From contig JACTAT010000022.1 in the NCBI GenBank assembly GCA_014526335.1, positions 167,823 through 231,822 on the forward strand: a stretch of DNA of 64,000 bases. The letters are read 5' to 3'. The DNA comes from Chrysaora quinquecirrha. Taxonomy: Eukaryota > Cnidaria > Scyphozoa > Semaeostomeae > Pelagiidae. The position numbers and the translations under genes were made by a program. The number at the start of each line of letters is the position of its first letter. Position 1 is the stretch's first letter. This document shows positions 10,476 to 64,000 of the stretch, piece by piece. The notes under the pieces were generated by a model that saw only the letters and a list, made by a program, of their open reading frames with translations, had not been told where the DNA came from and ran no database searches.

Positions 10476-11255
10476 CACGCTAGCGAATCTATAATCACTA
10501 CTGTGGTGGATAATCACTACTGTGGTGGTACTATTTGCGTACTGTGGTGGTAGTTTCTGCGTACTGTGGTGGATAATCACTACTTGTGGTGGTTTACTAT
10601 GCTTGCGGTGGTGGCAGTTTTGGCTTACTGTGGTGGATAATCACCACTTGTGGTGGTTTACTATGCTTGCGGTGGTGGCAGTTTTGGCTTACTGTGGTGG
10701 ATAATCACTACTTGTGGTGGTTTACTATGCTTGCGGTGGTGGCAGTTTTGGAGTACTGTGGTGGATAATCACTACTGTGGTGGTATTATTTGCGTACTGT
10801 GGTGGTATTATTTGCGTACTGTGGTGGATAATCACTACTTGTGGTGGGTTATAATGCTATATGTGGTGAATACGAAATCATAGCAAAACTCTATAGATCA
10901 AGCAAGAAAAAACCACAAAATCCACCACAGTACGCCAAAACTGCCACCACCGCAAGCATAGTAAACCACCACAAGTAGTGATTATCCACCACAGTAAGCC
11001 AAAACTGCCACCACCGCAAGCATAGTAAACCACCACAAGTAGTGATTATCCACCACAGTACGCCAAAACTGCCACCACCGCAAGCATAGTAAACCACCAC
11101 AAGTGGTGATTATCCACCACAGTAAGCCAAAACTGCCACCACCGCAAGCATAGTAAACCACCACAAGTAGTGATTATCCACCACAGTACGCAGAAACTAC
11201 CACCACAGTACGCAAATAGTACCACCACAGTAGTGATTATAGATTCGCTAGCGTG
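10476..11255. mobile_element. Foldback-type element with tandem-repeat arms and 5-bp TSD
   Basis: Termini are perfect inverts: CACGCTAGCGAATCTATAAT at the left and its complement at 11236-11255. Each arm (about 370 and 340 bp) contains three or so copies of a 64-bp unit (GTGGTGGATAATCACTACTT... ) in tandem; the right arm is the reverse complement. The spacer at about 10860-10915 is short. The element is bounded by AGAAG at 10471-10475 and AGAAG at 11256-11260, a 5-bp target duplication. Tandem repeats inside long inverted arms are the hallmark of Foldback (FB/Galileo-like) elements. No transposase frame. It ends 199 bp before the start codon of the next gene. Open frames over it reflect the repeat. 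Confidence 0.8.
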
Positions 11256-20500: not shown

Positions 20501-23500
20501 GTCTTGTCTTGTCTTGTCTTGTGTTGCCATGTCTTGTCTTGTCTATCTTGTCTTGTCTTGTTTAATCTTGTCTTGTCTTGCCTTGCCTTGTCTTGTCTTG
20601 TCTTGTCTTGTCTTGACTCATCTTATCCTGCCTTGTCTTGTCTTGTCTTGTTATGTCTTGTCTTGACTCATCTTATCTTCTCTTGTCTTGTCTTGTTTTG
20701 TCTTGTCTTGTCTTGTCTCGTCTTGTCTTGTCTTGTCTGTCTTCTCTTCTCTTGTCTTGTCTTGTCTGGCGTTGTCTTTTCTTGCTTATCTCTTTTTGTC
20801 TTGTCTTGTCTTGTCTTGCCATGTCTTTTCTTGTCTTGTCTTGTTTTGCCTTGTCTTGTCTATCTTGTCTTGTCTTGTCTTATCTTGTTTTTTTCTTGCT
20901 TTGTCTTGTCTTGTCTTGTCTTGTCTTGCCTTGTCTTGTCTATCTTGTCTTGTCTTGTCTTATCTTGTTTTTTCTTGCTTTGTCTTGTCTTGTCTTGCCT
21001 TGTCTTGTCTTGTCTTGCCATGTCTTTTCTTGTCTTGTTATGTCTTGTCTTGTCTTGTCTATCTTGTCTTGTCTTGTCTTATCTTGTCTTGTCTTGCCTT
21101 GTCTTGTCTTGTCTTGTCTTGTCTTGTCTTGTCTTGACTCATCTTATCCTGCCTTGTCTTGTCTTGTCTTGTCTTGTCTTGTTATGTCTTGTCTTGACTC
21201 ATCTTATCTTGTCTTGTCCTGTCCTGTCTTGTCTTGTCTTGTCTATCTTCTCTTGTCTTGTCTTGTCTTGTCTTGTCTTGTCTTGCGTTGTCCTTTCTTG
21301 TCTTGTCTCTTTTTGTTTTGTCTTGTCTTGTCTGGTCTTGTCTTGTCTTGTCTTGTTATGTCTTGTCTTGACTCATCTTATCTTGTCTTGTCTTGTCTTG
21401 TCTTGTCTTGTCTTGTCTTGTCTATCTTCTTTTGTCTTGTCTTGTCTTGTCTTGTCTTGTCTTGCGTTGTCCTTTCTTGTCTTGTCTCTTTTTGTTTTGT
21501 CTTGTCTTGTCTGGTCTTGTCTTGTCTTGTCTTGTCTCGTCTTATCTTGCATTGCCTCGTCTTGCCTTGCATCGTACATTAGATTCTTACATTCTTGCTT
21601 CCCTTGCAGCTGTAAACATCTCAGGGTCAGTTACCCTTGTTCCGCAAATTTTTCCTGGCATTCCGGCTTCATCCTGCCTCATAATACAAGTCCAAGAGCT
21701 GCAGCAGTGCAAGACCGGATCAAGTTGCATCGCTCCTTATTTTGCTGAGAAGACGATCTTTGACCCAGTTATGAGCATCGATTCAAAGATTCATTACAAG
21801 CTAACCCTCAGCAACTTAAACGGACAAAACTTTTCTATAACTGCTATTCTTAACATTGGCTGGTGCAAATATTCCGTGAAGGGAACAAAACAAACTAGAT
21901 CTGGGGACTACCATACATTTGGTCTCAATTCTTTCACGGTGAATGCAAAACAGACCACAGTAGTAAAGGATTTTTCATTGCATCAGTTTTTTGGAACTAC
22001 TAAAGGTACGATTAATAGACCATTTCGGGGTTCACGACGCCATATTCTAAGTGGGGCAAAAACCGCTCTTAATTCAATGGCGGCCTATATGAGAAAAGTT
22101 TTGAAATTCGTATTCTGAGAAAATAAACTCTCAATTTGTCTTCAATTTATCAGATTTCGATGTAAAATACACTTTTCAAACATAAAAAAAGAGTTTTTAA
22201 GCCTATGTTGATTGAAATTTAGCCTGTACTCACTATGAAGTTATGCCGGTTTTGCTCAATCGGTCATGGAAGCGCAACAGAATTTAATGTGGCATAGCGA
22301 ATTCGTAGTGAGTGCAGGCTCAATTTCAATCAACATAGGCTTAAAAACTTTTTGTTATGCTTGAAAAGTGTATTTTATATCGAAATCTGACAAATTGGAG
22401 AGAAATTGAGAGTTTATTTTCTTAAAATACGAATTTCAAAACTTTTCTCATATACTGTAGGTCGCCATTGAATTTAGAGCGGTTTTTTCTAAAATATGGA
22501 ATGGCCTTATTATTCCTTCAATTGAGCCCAAACCTTCTTAATTTCTACTCAGATGTGTTTGTAAGGCATATACAACCCTGGGGCGAAAGTTTCAGCAAAA
22601 GGAAGCGAGTAATTTTTGAGAAAATTCGCCATTCCATATTTTTCTAAAATATGGAATGGCCTTATTATTCCTTCAATTGACTCCAAACCTTCTTAATTTC
22701 TACTCAGATTTGTTTGTAAGGCATATACAACCCTAGCGGGAAGATTTCAGCAAAAGGAAGCGAGTAATTTTTGAGAAAATTCGCCATTCCATATTTTTCT
22801 AAAATATGGAATTGCCTTATTATTCCTTCAATTGACCCCAAACCTTCTTAATTTCTACTCAGATGTGTTTGTAAGGCATATACAACCCTAGCGGGAAGGT
22901 TTCAGCAAAATGAAGCGAGTAATTTTTGAGAAAATTCGCCATTCCATATTTTTCTAAAATATGGAATGCTCTGTTTTTGCTTCATTATACTTTCAAAATT
23001 AAAAATATTGTCGCAATGTGTTTGGAAATTGCTTTTCTTTTGCATTTATGCATTTTGATACCATTCCATCATTCCATTCCATCATTCCATCATTCCACTT
23101 CATCATTCCATAATCCATATTTTAGAGATAGCCATGTATTGAGTATTGTAAACCGGTCAATGATTGCTTGTAAAGCAACTGTCAAATATTTGTCCCACAA
23201 TGTTTGATCGTTTGGCCAGGGTCTAACTATGTTTGTCAAACATGTTTTGTAACTTAATAAAATAAAGAAAAGACCACGCAACTTACTGCTTTTAGAAAAT
23301 TTAAGCACGCTCTGAAGAGGCCTTGCTTGGCAGAGCAAAATATTAGCCCAAAAACATAGTTTCCTTTCGTCTCTGGCGATGCATTGTTTGAGCATCGAAT
23401 CTCAAATGTCTCACCAACAATGTTTGATCGTTTGACCTGGGCGCTATAGTGGGACCTTCGTATAATGGCAACCTGTTGTGTGGTATAAATGTTATTGTCC

Positions 23501-32192: not shown

Positions 32193-32289
32193 TCAGTAAA
32201 ACCGAGGTACCGCCCCTGGGGGAATTAGGAGTTTTGAACCTTTGTCTCGACAAGTTTGTAAAGTGAGATAACTTTCCGTTCAATTTTAG

Positions 32290-32524
32290 CTTGGAGAAAA
32301 GTCGACAAGTCCATGGTTTCCCACTCACACGGCTCGGGTGTGTCCTACACCTTGACTGGTGACGCAGCTGGAGGATTGAAAATCGATGCAACAGTCACGG
32401 ACCACGGTTGCGGAAAAGGGCCTGGTTCCTACTTAGTCGTTCACATCAAAGGAGACTGGAAACAAATCATGTACACGCAAGTATTCAAAGGATCAGCCAG
32501 CTGTTGGGGCATATTTGGAAACAA
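32290..32524 (+). CDS. Paralogue A, exon 3
   Basis: Acceptor CAATTTTAG, donor AACAA|GTAAGA; 235 bases, phase 1 to 2, the same size and phases as the B exon at 41673-41907. Encodes the glycine-rich 'VSYTLTGDAAGGLKI' segment, DHGCGKGPGS and 'HIKGDWKQIMYTQVF'. Confidence 0.75.
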
Positions 32525-35251
32525 GTAAGAATTGACCGTCTTGATTCAATTTCTACATTATGGTTGTTTGGAAAAGAGTATCGTTGACGGGGGTTGTCGA
32601 GTAGAGAGATAGAAATCATTGTTAACTTGCACTGTTTACCTAAGATTCTACACGCTTTTTTTATAAGGAACCACTTTATAAGGAACCTACATGTAGAAGG
32701 CCCGAAAATTTAAAGAACTTATACTACTATAAAGAGAAAATCGTTAAGAAACTTTTGAATGTTGAATACTTTTATAATTGCAAATAATCAAGAATTAGAA
32801 AGCCGGTTCCATTCATTTGCAGTGGAAAATCACATAAATTGTACGCCAGCATGTATCCAATGTTTCCTTGAGTAGTCTCGAACTTTGCTCGCATGTAATG
32901 TCTCTCTTTTATTGTTAAGACCACTGTATGTGCAGTTAAAATTAAGGAACTATTAAGGAACTTTTGGAACTACAATTGCCTCAAAAGAGGCCTAAAAATA
33001 AGGAACTTTAAGAACTAGGCCTTGAGGTAAGTTCCTTATAAAAAAAAGCGTGTATTGGCTATCTCATTCGATCTCATTCGTTGTTCGGCTATATCCTGCC
33101 AGCTGATTGGTGCTTCGCATTTATCTGTCGCACGTTTCAGTCTACATTTGGGTATACTGTATTCCCAGCAGCCCTGAAGTTTAACTCTTGTCCAAATCTT
33201 GAACAATAAAGGGCATGGCCAAATGATCAAATGTGGCTCATCAAACATCTGAAACGTGCTCTTCAACCAATATTTTTTACCGTATGGTCACAGGCCACAT
33301 CTTAAGGCCCTGGCCAAACGATCAAACATTGTTGGTCAAACATTTGCGATTTGCTTGTCAAGCAAAATGTTTGACCGTTTGGCCACGTCCAAAACCATTG
33401 CTCGTCCAACAGTTTTTGCTCGCGTCAAGCAAAAAATGTTTTTGAACTTTTTCAAAAACATCACGCTACAAATTTTGCTTACTTTTGCTTGTCAAGCAAT
33501 TTTTGATCGTTTGGCCGCCTTTCCAACATTGCTTGTCAAACATTTCTTTTGTTATTGTCAAACTTACACAGAAACAAGGCGCTCGTGCTTGCGCATTAAC
33601 AATGACTTCGTTGCTCCAAAATGTTGGACAGCAATGTTTTTGATGTGGCCAAACGGTCAAACATTTGTTGTAAAGCAAATTTAAAATGTTTGACCAACAA
33701 TGCTTGATCATTTGGCCAGGGCCTTGCGACGTGGCAAAACGGTCAAACATTGCTTGTAAAGCAGATCTCAAATGTTTGACTGCAATGTTTGATGGTTGAT
33801 TTGGCCAAGGCCTAAGTGCTGCGTATCTGCGTATCGTTTGGCTTTGGTATTAATTCCTTACAGTATGTTATCAAGGGCCAAAAATATGGAATTCTCTTCC
33901 TGATAAAATCAGAACGGCAAGAAACACTAAGCAGTTTAAAAATTTAATCAAAACCTTGTGCATCTCTGAGACACAAACCGTGCACTTCCCAAACTTCCCC
34001 GATTTTTTTTATCTGTGTTAATGTATTTTGTGTTTTCTAGAAGATACGTTGGTTCAGCTTTCGATGCCGGTTTGGAGGTTTTTAACCCGACTTTTGGTGA
34101 CATAATTTTTGGACAGAAAAAAATGGGTTCCAGTGCAGGTATGAAGAAGTTTAGATAATTAATGCTGCAGGATCTTTACTGCTTTCAAAATCAGAGAATC
34201 AAAACTTGGCATGTTTGTAATGTTGGCATGTTTGTAATTATACAGTTGCAGGTTTATCATACTTCAAATCAATGCGCGTTTTCACCGTTTTACCTCCCTG
34301 CTGCCAACCTTGTAGCGCGTACTGCAGACTAACCGTTCCACATTGCTGACTGTTATTGCAAAAATAAAACCCAAAACGCATTCAGAGATCATTTGGCTTA
34401 AAAACTTTCAAATGAAAACCACAAGCTGTAGATTTCTCAAGTTCAGACGAGATTTTTTTCAAAGAGATGTCAATTTCATGCAAGTTGTCGATTTCATCGA
34501 AAATGGGATGGGCAGAGATATGCATTGCGAGATACAAACCAGCTGCATTGTAGTATTTGCAGCTCTCAATGTGGCATGTAGCGAAATAGGCCGACCATTA
34601 AGGCCTGGCTAAACTAGGTGACATGTCGCGGGCGACATTGTGGCGAGTGACATGTCCCCTCGATGTCTCCCAGTTTAACCACCTCGGAAACTTTGTAGCG
34701 CGCGACACAATATGTAGCAAGAGACACGCAAATTATGTTTCTGGGAGACAACAGAAACATTGCTTGTCTCCGCGACATGCAAATGACTCGGAGGCATGTT
34801 GCTCGATCGTCACTCGCATGTTTCGCCACCCTGGAAGACACGCCGAATACAGTGTCGCGCGCGACATGTCTCCTAGTTTAGCCATAGCTTTAGAAGCTGT
34901 TTCCGAAAGAGTGGGAGGAATGTAGTAAGTCTAGCCGAAAGTCACACGTGGGCCAGTTAGGGCCAGTTGTTTCTTCTATGAAACGTTTAATATCAGAACA
35001 AATCCAGTAACTCACCTGCTGATCTTTTGAAATAATGTTTTCTTTATCCTCAAGATGATGTCTTCGCTGGAAAAACTAAGGTATGCGACAACGAGAAGAC
35101 CAACTTTTGGCACCAGGTAAATGGCAGTGGCGAAAGACAAGCAACTGTGATGCTAAGAAGGAAGAGTGGCGCAAAGCATTCTGGGATACAAACAGATACG
35201 TCATGTGGTACTCCGCAATACGTCATCAAAGACATCTTTGTTTTGGAGTGA
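32290..35251 (+). CDS. Secreted protein of unknown family, paralogue A (3' three exons)
   Basis: Exons 32290-32524, 34041-34138 (or from 34044) and 35055-35251 join in frame (phases 1, 2, 1) and end in TGA. They align exon for exon with paralogue B at 41673-43355 with about 80% identity. The signal-peptide exon and exon 2 seen in B are not visible here and probably lie in the gap at 31212-31711. The product starts (in view) AWRKVDKSMVSHSHGSG and contains 'VVHIKGDWKQIMYTQVF', SCWGIFG, 'GLEVFNPTFGDIIFGQKK' and a C-terminal 'TSCGTPQYVIKDIFVLE'. No domain is recognised. An alternative is that these are the last exons of the upstream mosaic gene, since the entry phase is also 1. Confidence 0.7.
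32649..33054. mobile_element. MITE family A, copy 5, in paralogue A intron
   Basis: Complete copy: TACACGC, T tract, ATAAGGAACC to GGTTCCTTATA-like end and GCGTGTA. Absent from the matching intron of paralogue B, so it inserted after the gene duplication. Confidence 0.75.
33299..33815. mobile_element. Family H palindromic element, fullest copy
   Basis: Left end TTAAGGCCCTGGCCAAACGA and right end ...TTTGGCCAAGGCCTAA enclose many inverted and direct 'TCAAACATTG', 'TTGTCAAGCAA' words. Noncoding. The TTAA at the left end and related TTAA at 55443 suggest TTAA target preference, as in family I. Confidence 0.6.
34041..34138 (+). CDS. Paralogue A, exon 4
   Basis: Acceptor reads TTTTCTAGAAG|ATACG, a tandem NAGNAG acceptor: use of the first AG adds one codon (R). 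Donor GCAG|GTATGA. Phase 2 to 1. Encodes 'YVGSAFDAGLEVFNPTFG' and DIIFGQKKMGSS, close to the B exon at 42460-42560. Confidence 0.75.
34598..34892. mobile_element. TTAA-edged MITE family I, copy 2
   Basis: Starts TTAAGGCCTGGCTAAACTAG, ends CTAGTTTAGCCATAGCTTTA. Interior words 'GCGCGACA', 'GGGAGACAACAGAAACATTG' match 1177-1456. In the last intron of paralogue A. Confidence 0.65.
35055..35251 (+). CDS. Paralogue A, exon 5 (terminal)
   Basis: Acceptor TATCCTCAAG, phase 1, TGA at 35249-35251; 197 bases like the B exon. Encodes 'DVFAGKTKVCDNEKTNFWHQ', VNGSGERQATVML and 'TSCGTPQYVIKDIFVLE'. Two cysteines are shared with B. Confidence 0.8.
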
Positions 35252-39059: not shown

Positions 39060-42000
39060 GTAAATCAACATTTTGCTTTTTAGTGAAATGTAGTACTCGC
39101 TTTTTTTGTTAGATTCCATTTTACTCACTATGATTTACTTTTGCGTCTTTTTACTCCAATTTACTTTGTTACGTTGTTACGTTTCGTTGCATTACTTTTC
39201 TTTACTTTATATACTTCAAAATTGCGATGAATAGGGGAATCAGTATGCCCGAAAATGATTCCGCTATTCATCGCAATTTTGAAGTTTTGTACAACTCAAA
39301 GACTATTTAGTTTATATACCGTTACTTTACATAACGTTAGTTTACTTTGCTTTCATTAACTTTTCTTCACTGTACGACTCTTGATTACTTGATTGCTACT
39401 TTTATTTACACTATAAACTTTACTTTTCTTGCTTCGATCCTTTAAATTACTACAACATTTCTTGCCTTAATTCGCTTTTTTTAGCCTTTACTATGGTTTT
39501 GCTTTTCAATACACCAACTTAACTAAAATCTTAACTTTTCTTAACTTAAATTTGTTTCACTTGATTTCGATTTATTTTACTTACTTAAATATCCATCGCT
39601 TTGCTTGTCTTACTTGTCTAGAAGAGTTTATCATGGTTTGCTAGATCACTTTACCTGTCTAGGTCACTTTACTATGGTTTACGACACGTCAACTTACCTT
39701 GTCTAATTTGTAGGTAACTGATTAACTGACCTATGTTCCCAATATGTTGATTCACTTTACTTTGTCTTACTGTCTTTTCTATACGTGGACCTCGTGGGAC
39801 CTCGTACTATAAACTACGTTACTCTGTGTTACTTTCCTTTACATTGTTCGCTTATAATTATGTTCAATATTGTTCGCTAAATGCTTAGTCGTAACTCTAA
39901 TGATTTCCTCAGGAAAATGGCAACATGTCAGGGTGGTATGGAGATGGTATAGAAATACCTTGAAGTGAATAAAGTTGAGTTAATCAACAGTATCAAAGCA
40001 GCAAAACAAAGTCAGTGCAAGTCGCAAGGTAAAATTACACCCTTTTTATGTCCGAAGGACATATTAAAACGGTGTCGTGGAACGCATGTATACATAGAAA
40101 ATAGGTAGGTAGATAGGTAGATAGGCATATAGACGCTTTTTCCTGCCAAACCGCGTAACAAAAGATAAAACCACAAATGATAGGAATTAAACTTTGAAAT
40201 CGCCGTTAAGTGTTGTCGTTAGTGGGCATAATTAACAAAATGCAATTGCTTACCAAAAACATCAATTAGTATAAACTGTTAGTGTAGCGCAGTGGAATAA
40301 TGCGCTTGATTTTTGGGCTAAGGGTTGTGAGTTCGATCCACTATGCAGGAACATTCTAACATCAAGATTTTCAAAACTAAAAATTTGACACCATGATTTT
40401 CTCGCAAAAAAGCCGGCTCGGTCGAGCTTAGAAAAAAAGGTTTGACTACAATATTGCAAAATGTTGCTCGAATCTAATTTGATTTGATTTTTTGTTTTGA
40501 AATATTTTCATACAATTTGATTGGGTTGTTATTGTCAGAAGTTGCTAGAAGTCGTCTCAGGTATAAGATATTTTCGTGCTGAAGAGAGGAGGAGATTGTG
40601 GCGCAGTAGAAATTGTGGCCAAGTTAAACAGAAGAATTTTTTGCAAAACAGTTTGCGGCTTCGAGAATCATCTGAAAATGAATGACTCAAAGTTGGCAAT
40701 CAATTCTTCTAAGTGCTACTAATGATCGAATATAGTCATCTGCATAGTATGCGAATTCTTTTGATAGCTTTTGAAGGTTCTAGAATTTAATTCATCATTT
40801 GAAACGAAGATTACAGGCTTCGGTGCACTGAACGGACTCATTTGTTACATACACAGTTTAACCGATGAGTTGATGAGTTCGAATTGATTAGTACAGTATA
40901 CGTAACTACAGAATTTCGATTTTCGATTCAAAGTTTTGGGATTCTTCCAGGAAAGGTTCATCTGATCATCAATGTCATCATTCGCATTATCATCATTATG
41001 GATCACCATCATCATCATCATCATCATCATCATCACCATCACCAGTCATCGTCTTCAAAATGATCATCATTGTTTAAGAAGATGATGATCGTGTTAAAGA
41101 CGATGATGATCATGTTGAAGACGGTGATCATCATTGCCCTCTTCAACATGACCACGTATCATCATCGTCATTATCATCATCATCATTATCATCATCATCA
41201 TCATCATCGTCATAGCCATGAACATAATCATCATTCTTATCATTTTTGTCTTCTTCTTCGTCATCTTCGTCATTATTATCATCATCTTCATCGTTATTAT
41301 CATCATCATCAGCGTCCTTCGGACATTGCTACAGCGTTGCTATTTTTTATAAGAATGTTAATGGGTTCCAGAGCCTCCTCAAATAGGGTTGGGCGAAAAA
41401 AGAGAAGGAAAGGAAATAAAGGAAGGAAATTCCTTTTTTTCGAATCTTTCTTTCTCTTTTTTTCGCTTACTTTTTTATTTCTTGTTTTTGTTCGCTTACT
41501 TTTTATAAGAAAGTTTGAAATGATCCAAGTACGTGAACTTTCTGGGCTACTGTATCTCAGAAATTCAGTACTCAAACTTTCTTTACAAAAAGCAACATTT
41601 AGTAATTGAAGCAGTTACACGTGAAAGTTACACAAGTTTTCTGAAGTATGATGATTTTTCATGCAATTTTAGCTTGGAGAAAAGTGGATACGTCCATGGT
41701 TTCCAACTCACATAGCTACGGCGTGTCCTACTCCCTGATGGGAGATGGAACTGGAGGGCTGACGATCAATGCAAAAGTCACGAGCTACGGTTGCAGTAAA
41801 GGGCCTGGTTCCAATTTAGTCGTTCACATCAAAGGAGACTGGAAACAAATCATGTACACGCAAGTGTTCAACGGATCAGCCAGTTGTTGGGGGATATTTG
41901 GAAACAAGTAAGAATCGCCTGTCTTAATTTGAATTTTTACATTATGACTGTTTGGAAAGGGGTTTTGTTGACGGGGGTTTGTTGCGAAAAGAGAAAGCTA

Positions 42001-43355
42001 CTAAGTGTTAGATGTGACTTTTATATTATCCTTATTATTATTATTATAACTTAGTAACCTCGTTTTGTTAGTAGCCTCGTTTTAGTTTTGTTCGTTGATT
42101 TGAGAATACAACATGGCGCTGCGAGCAGGACCTGAACCTGCGCGGGAATACCCCATTTGATTTCAATTGTATCCCATCCCTATGAGAAGGGAGATGTTAG
42201 ATGTGACTTTTATATTATCCTTATTATTATTATTATAACTTAGTAACCTCGTTTTGTTAGTAGCCTCGTTTTAGTTTTGTTCGTTGATTTGAGAATACAA
42301 CACTAAGCAACAGTGTTTGAACTTTTGCTTTGGCGAGGTCCTAAGTGCTGTGTTTCTCTAAATTGAAGAAAGCCCCGAGACACAAACCCTCATCCCAAAA
42401 TTCTCATTGATGCAGTGTTTTAACGTTGATTCTTAGTGTATTTTGTTTTTTTCTTCAAGATACGATGGTTCCACTTTAGCTGTCGATGCCGGTTTGGAGG
42501 TTTTTAACCCGTCTTTTGGTGACATCATTTTTGGACAGAAAAAAATGGGTTCAAGTACAGGTATTAAGAAATTCAAATGATTTCTCTTATGTGCCTAATT
42601 GCCGTCCCCCCGCTAATCAATTTTTTGAAAAATTTCCAACCCCCCGCTCTTATCAGGACCCCCCCGCTTATTAAGTTTGCATTAATATTGATGTTGATAT
42701 TTTTACTAAACTCACTTTGACGTTCTTGGTGTGAAATTTCACTTGTTCACTCAATTGGTTGGTTGGAACTATGGATTTCCTTAGCTTATAAGCACTATAA
42801 GGCCCCTTGCTTTCCATTTCAGCAGTTTCCACACAATCGGACCCCCCCGTTTATTCCGACCCCACCGCCAATTAGATTCGGACGGTAGTTCCAACCCCCC
42901 TGCCTATTCCGACCCCCCAGAAATTAGGCACCTAAGAGAACAACAACAACGAAGTCACTGCTATTACGCAAGCACGAGCCCCATATTTTTAGCCTTCAGA
43001 AAAAACAACTGGACCCCCCTGTCAGGTATCAATGGGAGAACCCCCGGGACACACGTGGTCCAGTTATTTTTTACTGCAGGCTAAAAACATGGCATATGAG
43101 AACGAATCCAGCAACTCACCTATTAAACTATTGAAACAATCTTTTCTCGATTCCCTAGATGATGTCTTTGCTGGGAAAACCAAAGCATGCAGCAACGCGA
43201 AGACCAACTTTTGGCACAAGTTGAACGGCAGTGGCAAACGACAAGCAACTGTGATACTAAGAAGGAAGAATGGCGCAAAGCAGTCTGGGATACAAACAGA
43301 AACCTCATGTGGTACTCCCCAATATTACATCAACGACATTTTTGTTTTGCAGTGA
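38989..43355 (+). CDS. Secreted protein of unknown family, paralogue B, with in-frame TAG
   Basis: Five exons: 38989-39059, 39913-40028, 41673-41907, 42460-42560, 43159-43355, phases 2, 1, 2, 1; total 720 bases, 240 codons with the stop. Exon 1 is a signal peptide (MSMIKFSLLMLTACILAAGK). Exon 2 contains TAG at 39950-39952, between MEMV and KYLEVNKVEL, with intact coding on both sides. So in this assembly the gene is formally broken by one base (a CAG-to-TAG change would explain it). The rest of the frame is undamaged and is about 80% identical to paralogue A. Intron 3 carries the miniature LTR element at 42006-42302. No known domain; the mature protein has six or so cysteines and several G-rich turns. 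Confidence 0.7.
39913..40028 (+). CDS. Paralogue B, exon 2, interrupted by TAG
   Basis: Acceptor GATTTCCTCAG, donor CAAG|GTAAAA; 116 bases, phase 2 to 1. Reads MATCQGGMEMV, stop (39950-39952), then KYLEVNKVELINSIKAAKQS and QCKSQ. Moving the acceptor does not rescue the frame: the AG of the TAG itself would put the exon out of phase. Confidence 0.6.
40278..40350 (+). mobile_element. tRNA-like SINE head in paralogue B intron 2
   Basis: Contains TAGCGCAGTGGAATAATGCG, a good A box, and GTTGTGAGTTCGATCC, a good B box, at tRNA-like spacing. The sequence after it is not a tRNA acceptor arm, so a tRNA-derived SINE is the better call. Confidence 0.5.
40985..41315. repeat. ATC-rich repeats in paralogue B intron 2
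   Basis: Two stretches (about 40985-41045 and 41155-41312) of ATC/ATT triplets, separated by a palindromic 'GATGATCATGTTGAAGAC' zone. A phrase after them, 'CGTCCTTCGGACATTGCTAC', resembles 6656-6680. Confidence 0.75.
41673..41907 (+). CDS. Paralogue B, exon 3
   Basis: Acceptor CAATTTTAG, donor AACAA|GTAAGA; 235 bases, phase 1 to 2. Encodes AWRKVDTSMVSNSHSYG, 'VSYSLMGDGTGGLTI', SYGCSKGPGS and 'HIKGDWKQIMYTQVF'. Confidence 0.75.
42006..42302 (+). mobile_element. TRIM: miniature LTR retrotransposon, identical LTRs, 5-bp TSD
   Basis: Two LTRs of 108 bp (42006-42113 and 42195-42302) read as identical; both start TGTTAGATGTGAC and end GAATACAACA (TG...CA). Directly after LTR 1 is TGGCGCTGCGAGCAGGACCT, a primer-binding site: its complement reads as a tRNA 3' end with CCA, an acceptor strand and a complete T arm (stem GCAGG/CCTGC). 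Directly before LTR 2 is the polypurine tract GAGAAGGGAGA (42184-42194). The 81-bp interior encodes nothing. CTAAG flanks both sides (42001-42005, 42303-42307). All parts needed in cis for retrotransposition are present and no proteins. Orientation + from PBS and PPT. Lies in an intron of paralogue B and is absent from paralogue A. Confidence 0.9.
42460..42560 (+). CDS. Paralogue B, exon 4
   Basis: Acceptor TTTCTTCAAG, donor ACAG|GTATTA; 101 bases, phase 2 to 1. Encodes 'KYDGSTLAVDAGLEVFNPSF' and GDIIFGQKKMGSST. One residue longer than or equal to the A exon depending on the A acceptor. Confidence 0.75.
43159..43355 (+). CDS. Paralogue B, exon 5 (terminal)
   Basis: Acceptor GATTCCCTAG, phase 1, TGA at 43353-43355. 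Encodes 'DVFAGKTKACSNAKTNFWHK', LNGSGKRQATVILRR and 'TSCGTPQYYINDIFVLQ'. The same 197 bases as in A. A later duplication of 'GTTTCAAACAGCAAACGTTT' (43364 and 43538) is in the 3' region. Confidence 0.8.
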
Positions 43356-62747: not shown

Positions 62748-64000
62748 TATAATAATAATAATAATAAAATATAAATTTTCTTCCCCAAAAGTAGATAAAT
62801 TTATTTGGTAGCGAAGGCCATGTGGCCTATACAGCCCTGGGTTACTAAAATTTACTTAAATTCAAATCTACTGTAAAACTTGTAATCATCGTACGATTTT
62901 TCGAATCCTTCTATTGATGAACTATTTACTGTATTCCAGTTAAGAGTATTCCAGTCATTCACCACTCTTTGAGAGAAAAAATTCTTTCTGATATTTGACC
63001 TGCTTCTCTTTTTAAAAAATTTCCAGTTATGACCCCTTGTAAAGTTCTGCCTTACTTCGAAGAACAAAGATGAGTCTGTGTCTATATAACCATTCAGAAT
63101 TTTGAATGTAAGAATCATATCACCACGTTGCCGCCTGTATTCTAACGATGGCAAATTCAATATGCGAAGACGATCTCCATATGCAAGGTTTTTTAATGGA
63201 GCTCACTAGTTTTGTTGCCCTTCTTTGTACAGCTTCTATTGCTTTAATATGTTTGATAAGATATGGATGCCAAATCGCTCCAGCACTTTCCAGCAGAGGA
63301 CGAACAAGGCTCTTGTATAATGACAGAAATACATTTTTTATCAATAAATTTAAATGTTCTCTTAATGGATCCCAAAACACCATTGGCTTTCTTTATACTC
63401 TCAGCTACTTGCTTATCAAATTTAAGATTTTTGTCAATATAAACACCTAGATCTTTAACGTCAGTTGCTTCTTTTATTTTAATTTCTGTATCCTTGTCTT
63501 CATCTCGAAGATAGTAGTCAATTTGTCTTTCGTATTTAGCGCCAATTTGAAGAACATGACATTTATCACCGTTTAATGGTAGCTGCCAGTCGTTAGACCA
63601 TTTGTCGATATTTGATATATCAGACTGAATTCTAGCTTCATTGTTAATGCTAGAAGAATAAAGTTTCAAATCGTCTGCAAACATCTTTACACCACAGTTA
63701 TATACATGATCTGGCAAATCATTAACGTACAAAAGAAATAGCAAGGGTCCCAGCACGCTGCCCTGTGGAACTCCACTCAATACATTACTCCACTTTGATT
63801 TATATCCGTTTAATAATACACGCTGTTTTCGATTCTCTAAAAATGATGTAATCCAGTTAAAAACATTTCCATTAATTCCATAAGACCGTACTTTATGCAG
63901 TAAACGCTGATGGGGTACCGAATCAAATGCTTTTGAAAAATCGAAATAAACTATATCAACAGAATCTCCATCATCAAGACTAGTAGTCACTTCTTCTAAG
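62748..64000 (-). pseudogene. CR1/jockey-like LINE, RT domain to 3' tail, frameshifted
   Basis: Runs off the window on its 5' side. The RT shows 'FDFSKAFDSVPHQRLL', GVPQGSVLGPLLFLLYVND and the catalytic 'KMFADDLKLYSS', then DVKDLGVYIDKNLKF. Frame breaks occur near 63250-63350 and 63130-63150, with the C-terminal part ending in VVNDWNTLNWNTVNSSS before the stop at 62852. The 3' tail (minus strand) ends in an ATT/TAT microsatellite (62748-62770), usual for non-LTR elements. It is younger-looking than the other LINE pieces, but dead by two frameshifts (or sequencing errors). Confidence 0.8.

Follow-up and report, generated by a model that had tools for sequence, protein, structure and literature searches.

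A 297-bp LTR element that is probably an integrated by-product of reverse transcription with an over-extended copy of its tRNA-Ser primer

The stretch of Chrysaora quinquecirrha DNA that we analysed, 64,000 nucleotides in all and called the window here, holds at 42006-42302 a 297-bp element with the outward shape of a terminal-repeat retrotransposon in miniature (TRIM). We think it likely that this element is a single integrated by-product of the reverse transcription of a young LTR retrotransposon of Ty3/gypsy type (here the partner), formed with an over-extended copy of the tRNA primer. With appreciably less assurance, we are inclined to go further and to suggest that over-extended primer-tRNA copies, which have been thought of as dead ends, can be completed and integrated, turning a full LTR retrotransposon in one step into a TRIM-shaped element that has all of its cis signals and keeps a genomic record of m1A58 and m3C32 of an individual primer tRNA. 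The element, the partner copies and the tRNA genes discussed here are all known from one assembly. The parts of the element and its target site are as follows, in window positions.

42001-42005, plus strand: left target site duplication, CTAAG (from the sequence)
42006-42113, plus strand: 5' LTR, 108 bp, with ends TGTT..AACA; seven young partner copies have the same LTR sequence, except that 13 bases are missing from the start of the 5' LTR in one copy
42114-42127, plus strand: 14-nt primer binding site (PBS), also present in the young partner copies; complement of tRNA-Ser positions 76-63
42114-42168, minus strand as the tRNA sense strand: copy of tRNA-Ser(UGA) positions 76 to 31 (from alignment to the tRNA and comparison with the partner)
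42128-42168, minus strand as the tRNA sense strand: tRNA-only part, 41 nt, missing from the partner at the same place (partner comparison)
42131-42132, plus strand: CC opposite tRNA positions 59 and 58, where the genes predict TT (tRNA gene comparison)
42167, plus strand: T opposite tRNA position 32, where most genes predict G (tRNA gene comparison)
42169-42194, plus strand: 26 nt that adjoin the 3' LTR in two young partner copies, at 100% identity and with the polypurine tract included (partner comparison)
42184-42194, plus strand: polypurine tract (PPT) GAGAAGGGAGA, 11 nt (from the sequence and partner comparison)
42195-42302, plus strand: 3' LTR, 108 bp, at 100% identity to its 5' counterpart (repeat comparison)
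42303-42307, plus strand: right target site duplication, CTAAG (from the sequence)

Much of this anatomy had already been read from the letters alone, and it stands up well. Repeat comparison gives 100% identity for the two 108-bp LTRs with their TG..CA ends, and the placing of the PBS directly after LTR 1, of the PPT directly before LTR 2 and of the CTAAG duplication is right to the base; the 81-bp interior (42114-42194) opens with TGGCGCTGCGAGCAGG and closes with GAGAAGGGAGA, which adjoins LTR 2. The identity of the LTRs agrees with the recent insertion proposed in the original prediction, and the exact target duplication is in keeping with a complete, LTR-ended DNA having been inserted by an integrase-type reaction. 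Might the whole structure be an artefact of assembly or a local duplication? There is just the one assembly, and 1000 N occur in two stretches elsewhere in the window, but the 5-bp target duplication is perfect, the LTR termini are exact and the bases at the junction are not found in the tRNA arrays of the genome, so that we regard such an origin as exceedingly improbable. There is no second copy of the 297-bp element elsewhere in the 64-kb window.

The interior had been described as 81 bp of noncoding sequence. The length is correct, but by alignment this is no ordinary spacer and is mostly a copy of the primer tRNA. Indeed, the complementarity to tRNA runs past the T arm recognised earlier and continues without a gap to 53 bases, 45 of which are identical to the reverse complement of human tRNA-Ser(UGA) plus CCA; none of 5000 dinucleotide shuffles reaches this score in either of two scoring schemes, and the interior beyond nt 18, where a PBS usually ends, is significant by itself (again 0/5000 shuffles). 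The human sequences were those printed in the available parts of PMC11096365 and PMC12217144, which also give seven other human tRNAs; these score 23 at best against the interior, compared with 66 for tRNA-Ser(UGA). The register runs from the CCA end through the T arm, the variable arm and the anticodon, which is UGA, to position 31-33. In total, the tRNA part covers 55 nt, comprising the 14 nt of the PBS and 41 nt unique to the element, and the sequence of the partner departs from that of the element after interior nt 14 and returns at nt 56. Since nt 1-14 are common to the partner and the tRNA, the complement of CCA alone is no proof that a mature tRNA was copied, and for the same reason the finding that CCA is encoded in none of the 667 host tRNA-Ser genes proves little. 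Rfam has no tRNA match on 41990-42320, even at an E value of 10, and none in the LTRs either; ARAGORN (bacterial code) reports no tRNA in the whole window; the interior RNA fold is nothing special (z -0.68); and the LTR-PBS junction has no exact match in the prokaryotic and viral collections. A role as a Pol III promoter, of a Helenus-like kind, was considered and dropped; the tRNA part is antisense, lies in the interior and is without the 5' part of the tRNA.

The original prediction had expected an autonomous partner, and a partner with matching ends that encodes reverse transcriptase, RNase H and integrase is present in the same genome. We searched the organism's own assembly (328 Mb, 740 contigs) with the 297-bp element, scoring 40 of 72 first-look candidates, which gave 426 matches, part of them listed, and within this scope the only full-length match is the element's own site. 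Query positions 1-122 and 164-297 return as paired matches on the same strand, 4.4-5.5 kb apart, and these are the partner elements, at 99-100% identity in seven young copies (one without the first 13 bases) and at 94-95% in one pair that is older; both partner-derived parts are 100% identical to the element in two of the copies, C290:6964402-6968827 and C124:8253085-8258590. Among the matches listed, an extra match to positions 1-122, on C2, is without a partner end, and the query from 100/103 to 161/163 matches tandem tRNA genes at 89-94% identity. A search with the LTR alone, in which all 18 of 18 candidates were scored, gave 19 matches. Two are the element's own LTRs, 14 belong to the seven young copies and are 100% identical, with one of them short of its first 13 bases, and three are at 94%; no unpaired young LTR came up.

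Pieces of two partner copies, searched apart, encode the Pfam domains RVT_1, RT_RNaseH_2, Integrase_H2C2 and rve, in the order reverse transcriptase (RT), RNase H, then the integrase zinc finger and core; no gag domain is recognised by Pfam in the 5' pieces of the partner copies searched. A protease match (RVP) lies 5' of RT in one copy, where it is weak (E 0.0039) and under the Pfam cut-off. The nearest solved structure to the RT/RNase H piece is Ty3 Gag-Pol (E 1.1e-32). Judged by the PR-RT-RNase H-IN order, its protease being weak, and by the Ty3-like RT, the partner is of Ty3/gypsy type, and its tRNA-Ser primer and short LTR may link it to the mag clade. The copies come in two sizes: C124 and the C290 copy near 0.78 Mb measure about 5.5 kb, and six others, including one truncated at its 5' end, about 4.4 kb; the reading frames are shorter in the one 4.4-kb copy examined than in the C124 copy, and the PPT is one G shorter in five young copies. 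One feature counts against a simple picture, namely that target duplications are weak or missing within young partner copies despite identical LTRs. Among eight paired copies, a clear 5-bp duplication (CACAA) is seen only at C124, the C420 copy is truncated so that its duplication is not assessable, and the remaining paired copies have none or at most 3 bp. At the C576 copy, the flanks are inverted on its two sides.

Is the element, then, simply a TRIM? By form it is one: it has two LTRs, is shorter than 1 kb (297 bp), has no coding capacity, carries a PBS after LTR 1 and a PPT before LTR 2 that are both identical to those of young partner copies (five of which have one G fewer in the PPT), and is flanked by CTAAG on both sides. 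This fits the definition, but no sign was found of a dispersed family moved in trans: the 328 Mb yield one full-length match (40 of 72 candidates scored) and no unpaired young LTR, the LTRs are undiverged from those of the partner, and the interior consists of a primer copy and a partner end. That it is an ordinary member of a TRIM family is therefore very unlikely, and it is best read as a one-off by-product. The idea that such a family is still being moved accordingly finds no support, the LTR search having returned the element's own two LTRs and those of the partner family only. An absence of other copies had been named in advance as grounds for giving up the original prediction, and for the whole element that absence is what we see; it speaks against a family, though not against the insertion. 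In short, the original prediction is partly supported, with its observation confirmed and its reading as a TRIM family member unsupported. TRIM and SMART elements share with the 297-bp element a short, gene-free LTR-PBS-PPT-LTR structure, but as described in the available text of PMC4558846 and PMC6934838 they are multicopy families, whereas we found a single copy here, with an interior made up mostly of primer tRNA. Helenus is likewise a TRIM with tRNA-like sequence, but in the part of PMC10886601 available its tRNA-like sequence lies in the LTRs, is without PBS complementarity and is attributed to a SINE insertion, and animal Helenus elements have 4-bp duplications, as against 5 bp here; in our element the similarity lies in the interior and is antisense.

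As for the host's own tRNA genes, we scanned 24 fetched array stretches (L025-L030 and L032-L049) with ARAGORN, which found 685 tRNA genes, 667 of them tRNA-Ser (305 AGA, 267 UGA, 93 CGA and 2 GGA), and most of the 667 have the 3' end that matches the element's PBS, which suits the earlier suggestion of a tRNA-Ser primer of UCN type. These tandem tRNA-Ser(UCN) arrays are very large, with a unit of about 161 bp and with AGA, UGA and CGA genes mixed within one array; some copies within them are decayed, and four tRNA-Phe genes form a small array nearby. When the 52-nt copied core is compared with the consensus of 215 full-length UGA genes, there are four differences, at position 32 (C, where the element has A), at 58 and 59 (both A, where the element has G) and, in the variable arm, at the base that closes its 5' strand (A, where the element has G). 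The nearest intact-looking gene type (L027:7715-7796 and L046:6306-6387) has the variable-arm G and differs at 32, 58 and 59 only. Another gene type (L025:7980-8061 and L037:7799-7880), the 5' half of which is degenerate, naturally has A32 and differs at the variable arm, 58 and 59, so that if such copies were the source the m3C32 mismatch would be gone and a variable-arm mismatch added.

We then have to ask whether any gene carries the changes at 58 and 59. In a survey of 630 places with at most 10 mismatches from the core, more distant places being left out of the count, G58 occurs in none, G59 in five and the two together in none. The 328 Mb contain the 16-mer that includes G58-G59 a single time, at the element, in a count of exact matches that would pass over a gene differing at yet another of the 16 bases; this search also covered a further array near C290:12.717-12.720 Mb, which lies outside the 24 stretches. 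These observations bear on whether the element has captured a tRNA gene, a tRNA pseudogene or a tRNA-derived SINE instead of copying the primer itself. The sheer size of the tRNA-Ser arrays would favour a capture, but the tRNA stretch extends the PBS in register, from nt 14 into nt 15 and exactly at the primer site, it is antisense, and its exact G58-G59 16-mer is nowhere else in the assembly, all of which leaves capture with very little probability.

The differences are also unevenly spread, since the partner-derived bases show 0/256 differences from their nearest source (two copies) while the tRNA-only bases show 3/41 (Fisher p 0.0025, or 0.019 with 2/41), and because they cluster in the tRNA copy in this way, later decay does not explain them. 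With the nearest intact-looking gene type as the source, three differences placed at random among the 52 positions would hit both 32 and 58 with a probability of 50/22100, or about 0.002, by a test chosen post hoc; with the A32 gene type, they would hit 58 with a probability of 3/52, by arithmetic likewise chosen post hoc. Positions 58 and 32 matter for what they carry in other eukaryotes, human tRNA-Ser having m1A at 58 and m3C at 32. On primer tRNAs, including tRNA-Ser, m1A58 is described as the usual stop of plus-strand strong-stop DNA, and without the methylase plus-strand synthesis extends past position 58 (PMC13191261, in the part available). An m1A followed by A is misread with a low C signal, that is, mostly as G or T (PMC4787781, in part); in the host tRNA the base after 58 is A, and the element shows G at 58. 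Similarly, m3C32 is present in >95% of human cytoplasmic tRNA-Ser (PMC11233606, in part), and the tRNA copy in the element is no longer faithful at 32 and breaks off at 31-33. The changes at 58 and 32 are thus suggestive of a trace of primer tRNA methylation, in a comparison where 59 also differs from the nearest intact-looking gene and where m1A58 and m3C32 are taken from other eukaryotes. At position 59 we know of no modification. The only explanation that we can offer for the change there, again a suggestive one, is that it adjoins the stall site at 58. A third misread site, m3C47d in the variable arm, had been adopted from human tRNA and was withdrawn, since in most host genes the base at the centre of this loop is A.

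How might such a molecule have formed? From 5' to 3', the element is composed of a partner LTR, the 14-nt partner PBS, the in-register complement of tRNA-Ser(UGA), the last 26 nt of the partner and a partner LTR, and a tRNA complement that continues in register from the PBS is what over-extension of plus-strand strong-stop DNA would leave. We propose that a plus strand started at the PPT would have copied U3-R-U5 and then the tRNA still joined to the minus strand; that it would have failed to stop at m1A58, with 58 and 59 misread, and would have gone on to m3C32, to be misread or to stop there; that its 3' end would then have moved onto the minus strand at a point 15 nt upstream of the PPT, a region expected to be single-stranded at that time; and that the PPT and the LTR would have been copied after the switch, giving a 297-bp LTR-ended DNA for integrase to insert. 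A displaced strand with a 55-nt tRNA copy that switches just upstream of the PPT would produce both the observed order and the short distance of 26 nt to the LTR. No microhomology is seen at the junction where the switch would have taken place, and the TT that ends the tRNA copy could be untemplated. For Ty3, the part of PMC5371799 available describes a first plus strong-stop DNA that copies 12 nt of the tRNA and is displaced by re-priming at the PPT, with the displaced products piling up as dead ends. The likeness to our element lies in the Ty3/gypsy type and in a displaced first product with a tRNA copy, and the difference is that the Ty3 product, with its 12 nt, accumulates in particles (PMC5371799), while here such a product was seemingly extended, completed and integrated. 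Plus-strand copying that passes the usual 18 nt of the primer tRNA, under the control of m1A58, is also described for lentiviruses and spumaviruses, but in the available part of PMC13191261 it appears as a replication intermediate or as sequence beside the PBS, whereas here 55 nt sit in an integrated element and replace the coding interior.

The main rival to this direct route has two steps. In a circle or concatemer, an LTR end with the over-extended tRNA copy would be joined to a PPT-bearing end, and a mini-RNA transcribed across that junction would undergo normal reverse transcription and integration. Such joins have some precedent, because insertions of PBS, tRNA-primer and PPT sequence are described at HIV 2-LTR junctions, one listed junction even having the order LTR, primer-derived bases, PPT, LTR; those junctions, as far as the available text of PMC5618025 goes, belong to extrachromosomal circles, whereas our element is integrated, with a target duplication and a long tRNA copy. 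A join of this kind would account for the missing microhomology. On the other hand, it needs an extra round of transcription that no sequence feature demands, and it relies on the same over-extension of the tRNA copy, differing only in how the ends met, and we consider it rather unlikely. An element of this kind has, so far as we can tell, no published counterpart: full-text searches brought up TRIM families, Helenus and work on strong-stop DNA, but no description of an integrated LTR element with a copy of the primer tRNA as its interior, which is weak evidence, most subscription papers being outside the search.

To our knowledge, it is an open question how TRIMs shed their whole coding interior yet keep exact PBS and PPT ends. 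This locus offers a concrete route, in which over-extension of the primer and a switch beside the PPT would remove all else in one event. The cis signals for replication being present, the element could have founded a TRIM family, but no further copy was found. What we seem to see is a TRIM-shaped element at its birth, and perhaps also a fossil of tRNA methylation. A further suggestion is that m1A58 serves as a strong stop, as established in HIV, for animal Ty3/gypsy elements primed by tRNA-Ser too, and that the cells where insertions arise may leave legible marks of their tRNA modification in the genome.

As regards its surroundings, the element plausibly lies within an intron, judging from the flanking sequence. 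Positions 41690-41910 encode a stretch 60-69% identical to five database proteins, which is followed by a donor-like GTAAG, and coding sequence seemingly resumes near 42461 (by eye). An exon region is duplicated in the window (32250-32612 and 41632-41997, 83% identical); the paralogous exon at 32250-32612 was tried as an empty site and proved uninformative, with the homology ending about 8 bp before the insertion point. The window also encodes Kazal and zona pellucida domains, with a weak Ig match under the Pfam cut-off, and a reading frame with a reverse transcriptase domain lies on the minus strand at 63244-63990. Long palindromic (self-inverted) stretches with 83-89% identity occur at 10510-11240 and 22058-22487, and 20504-21748 holds long low-complexity frames with repeated CLVLS-type peptides, apparently a simple repeat.
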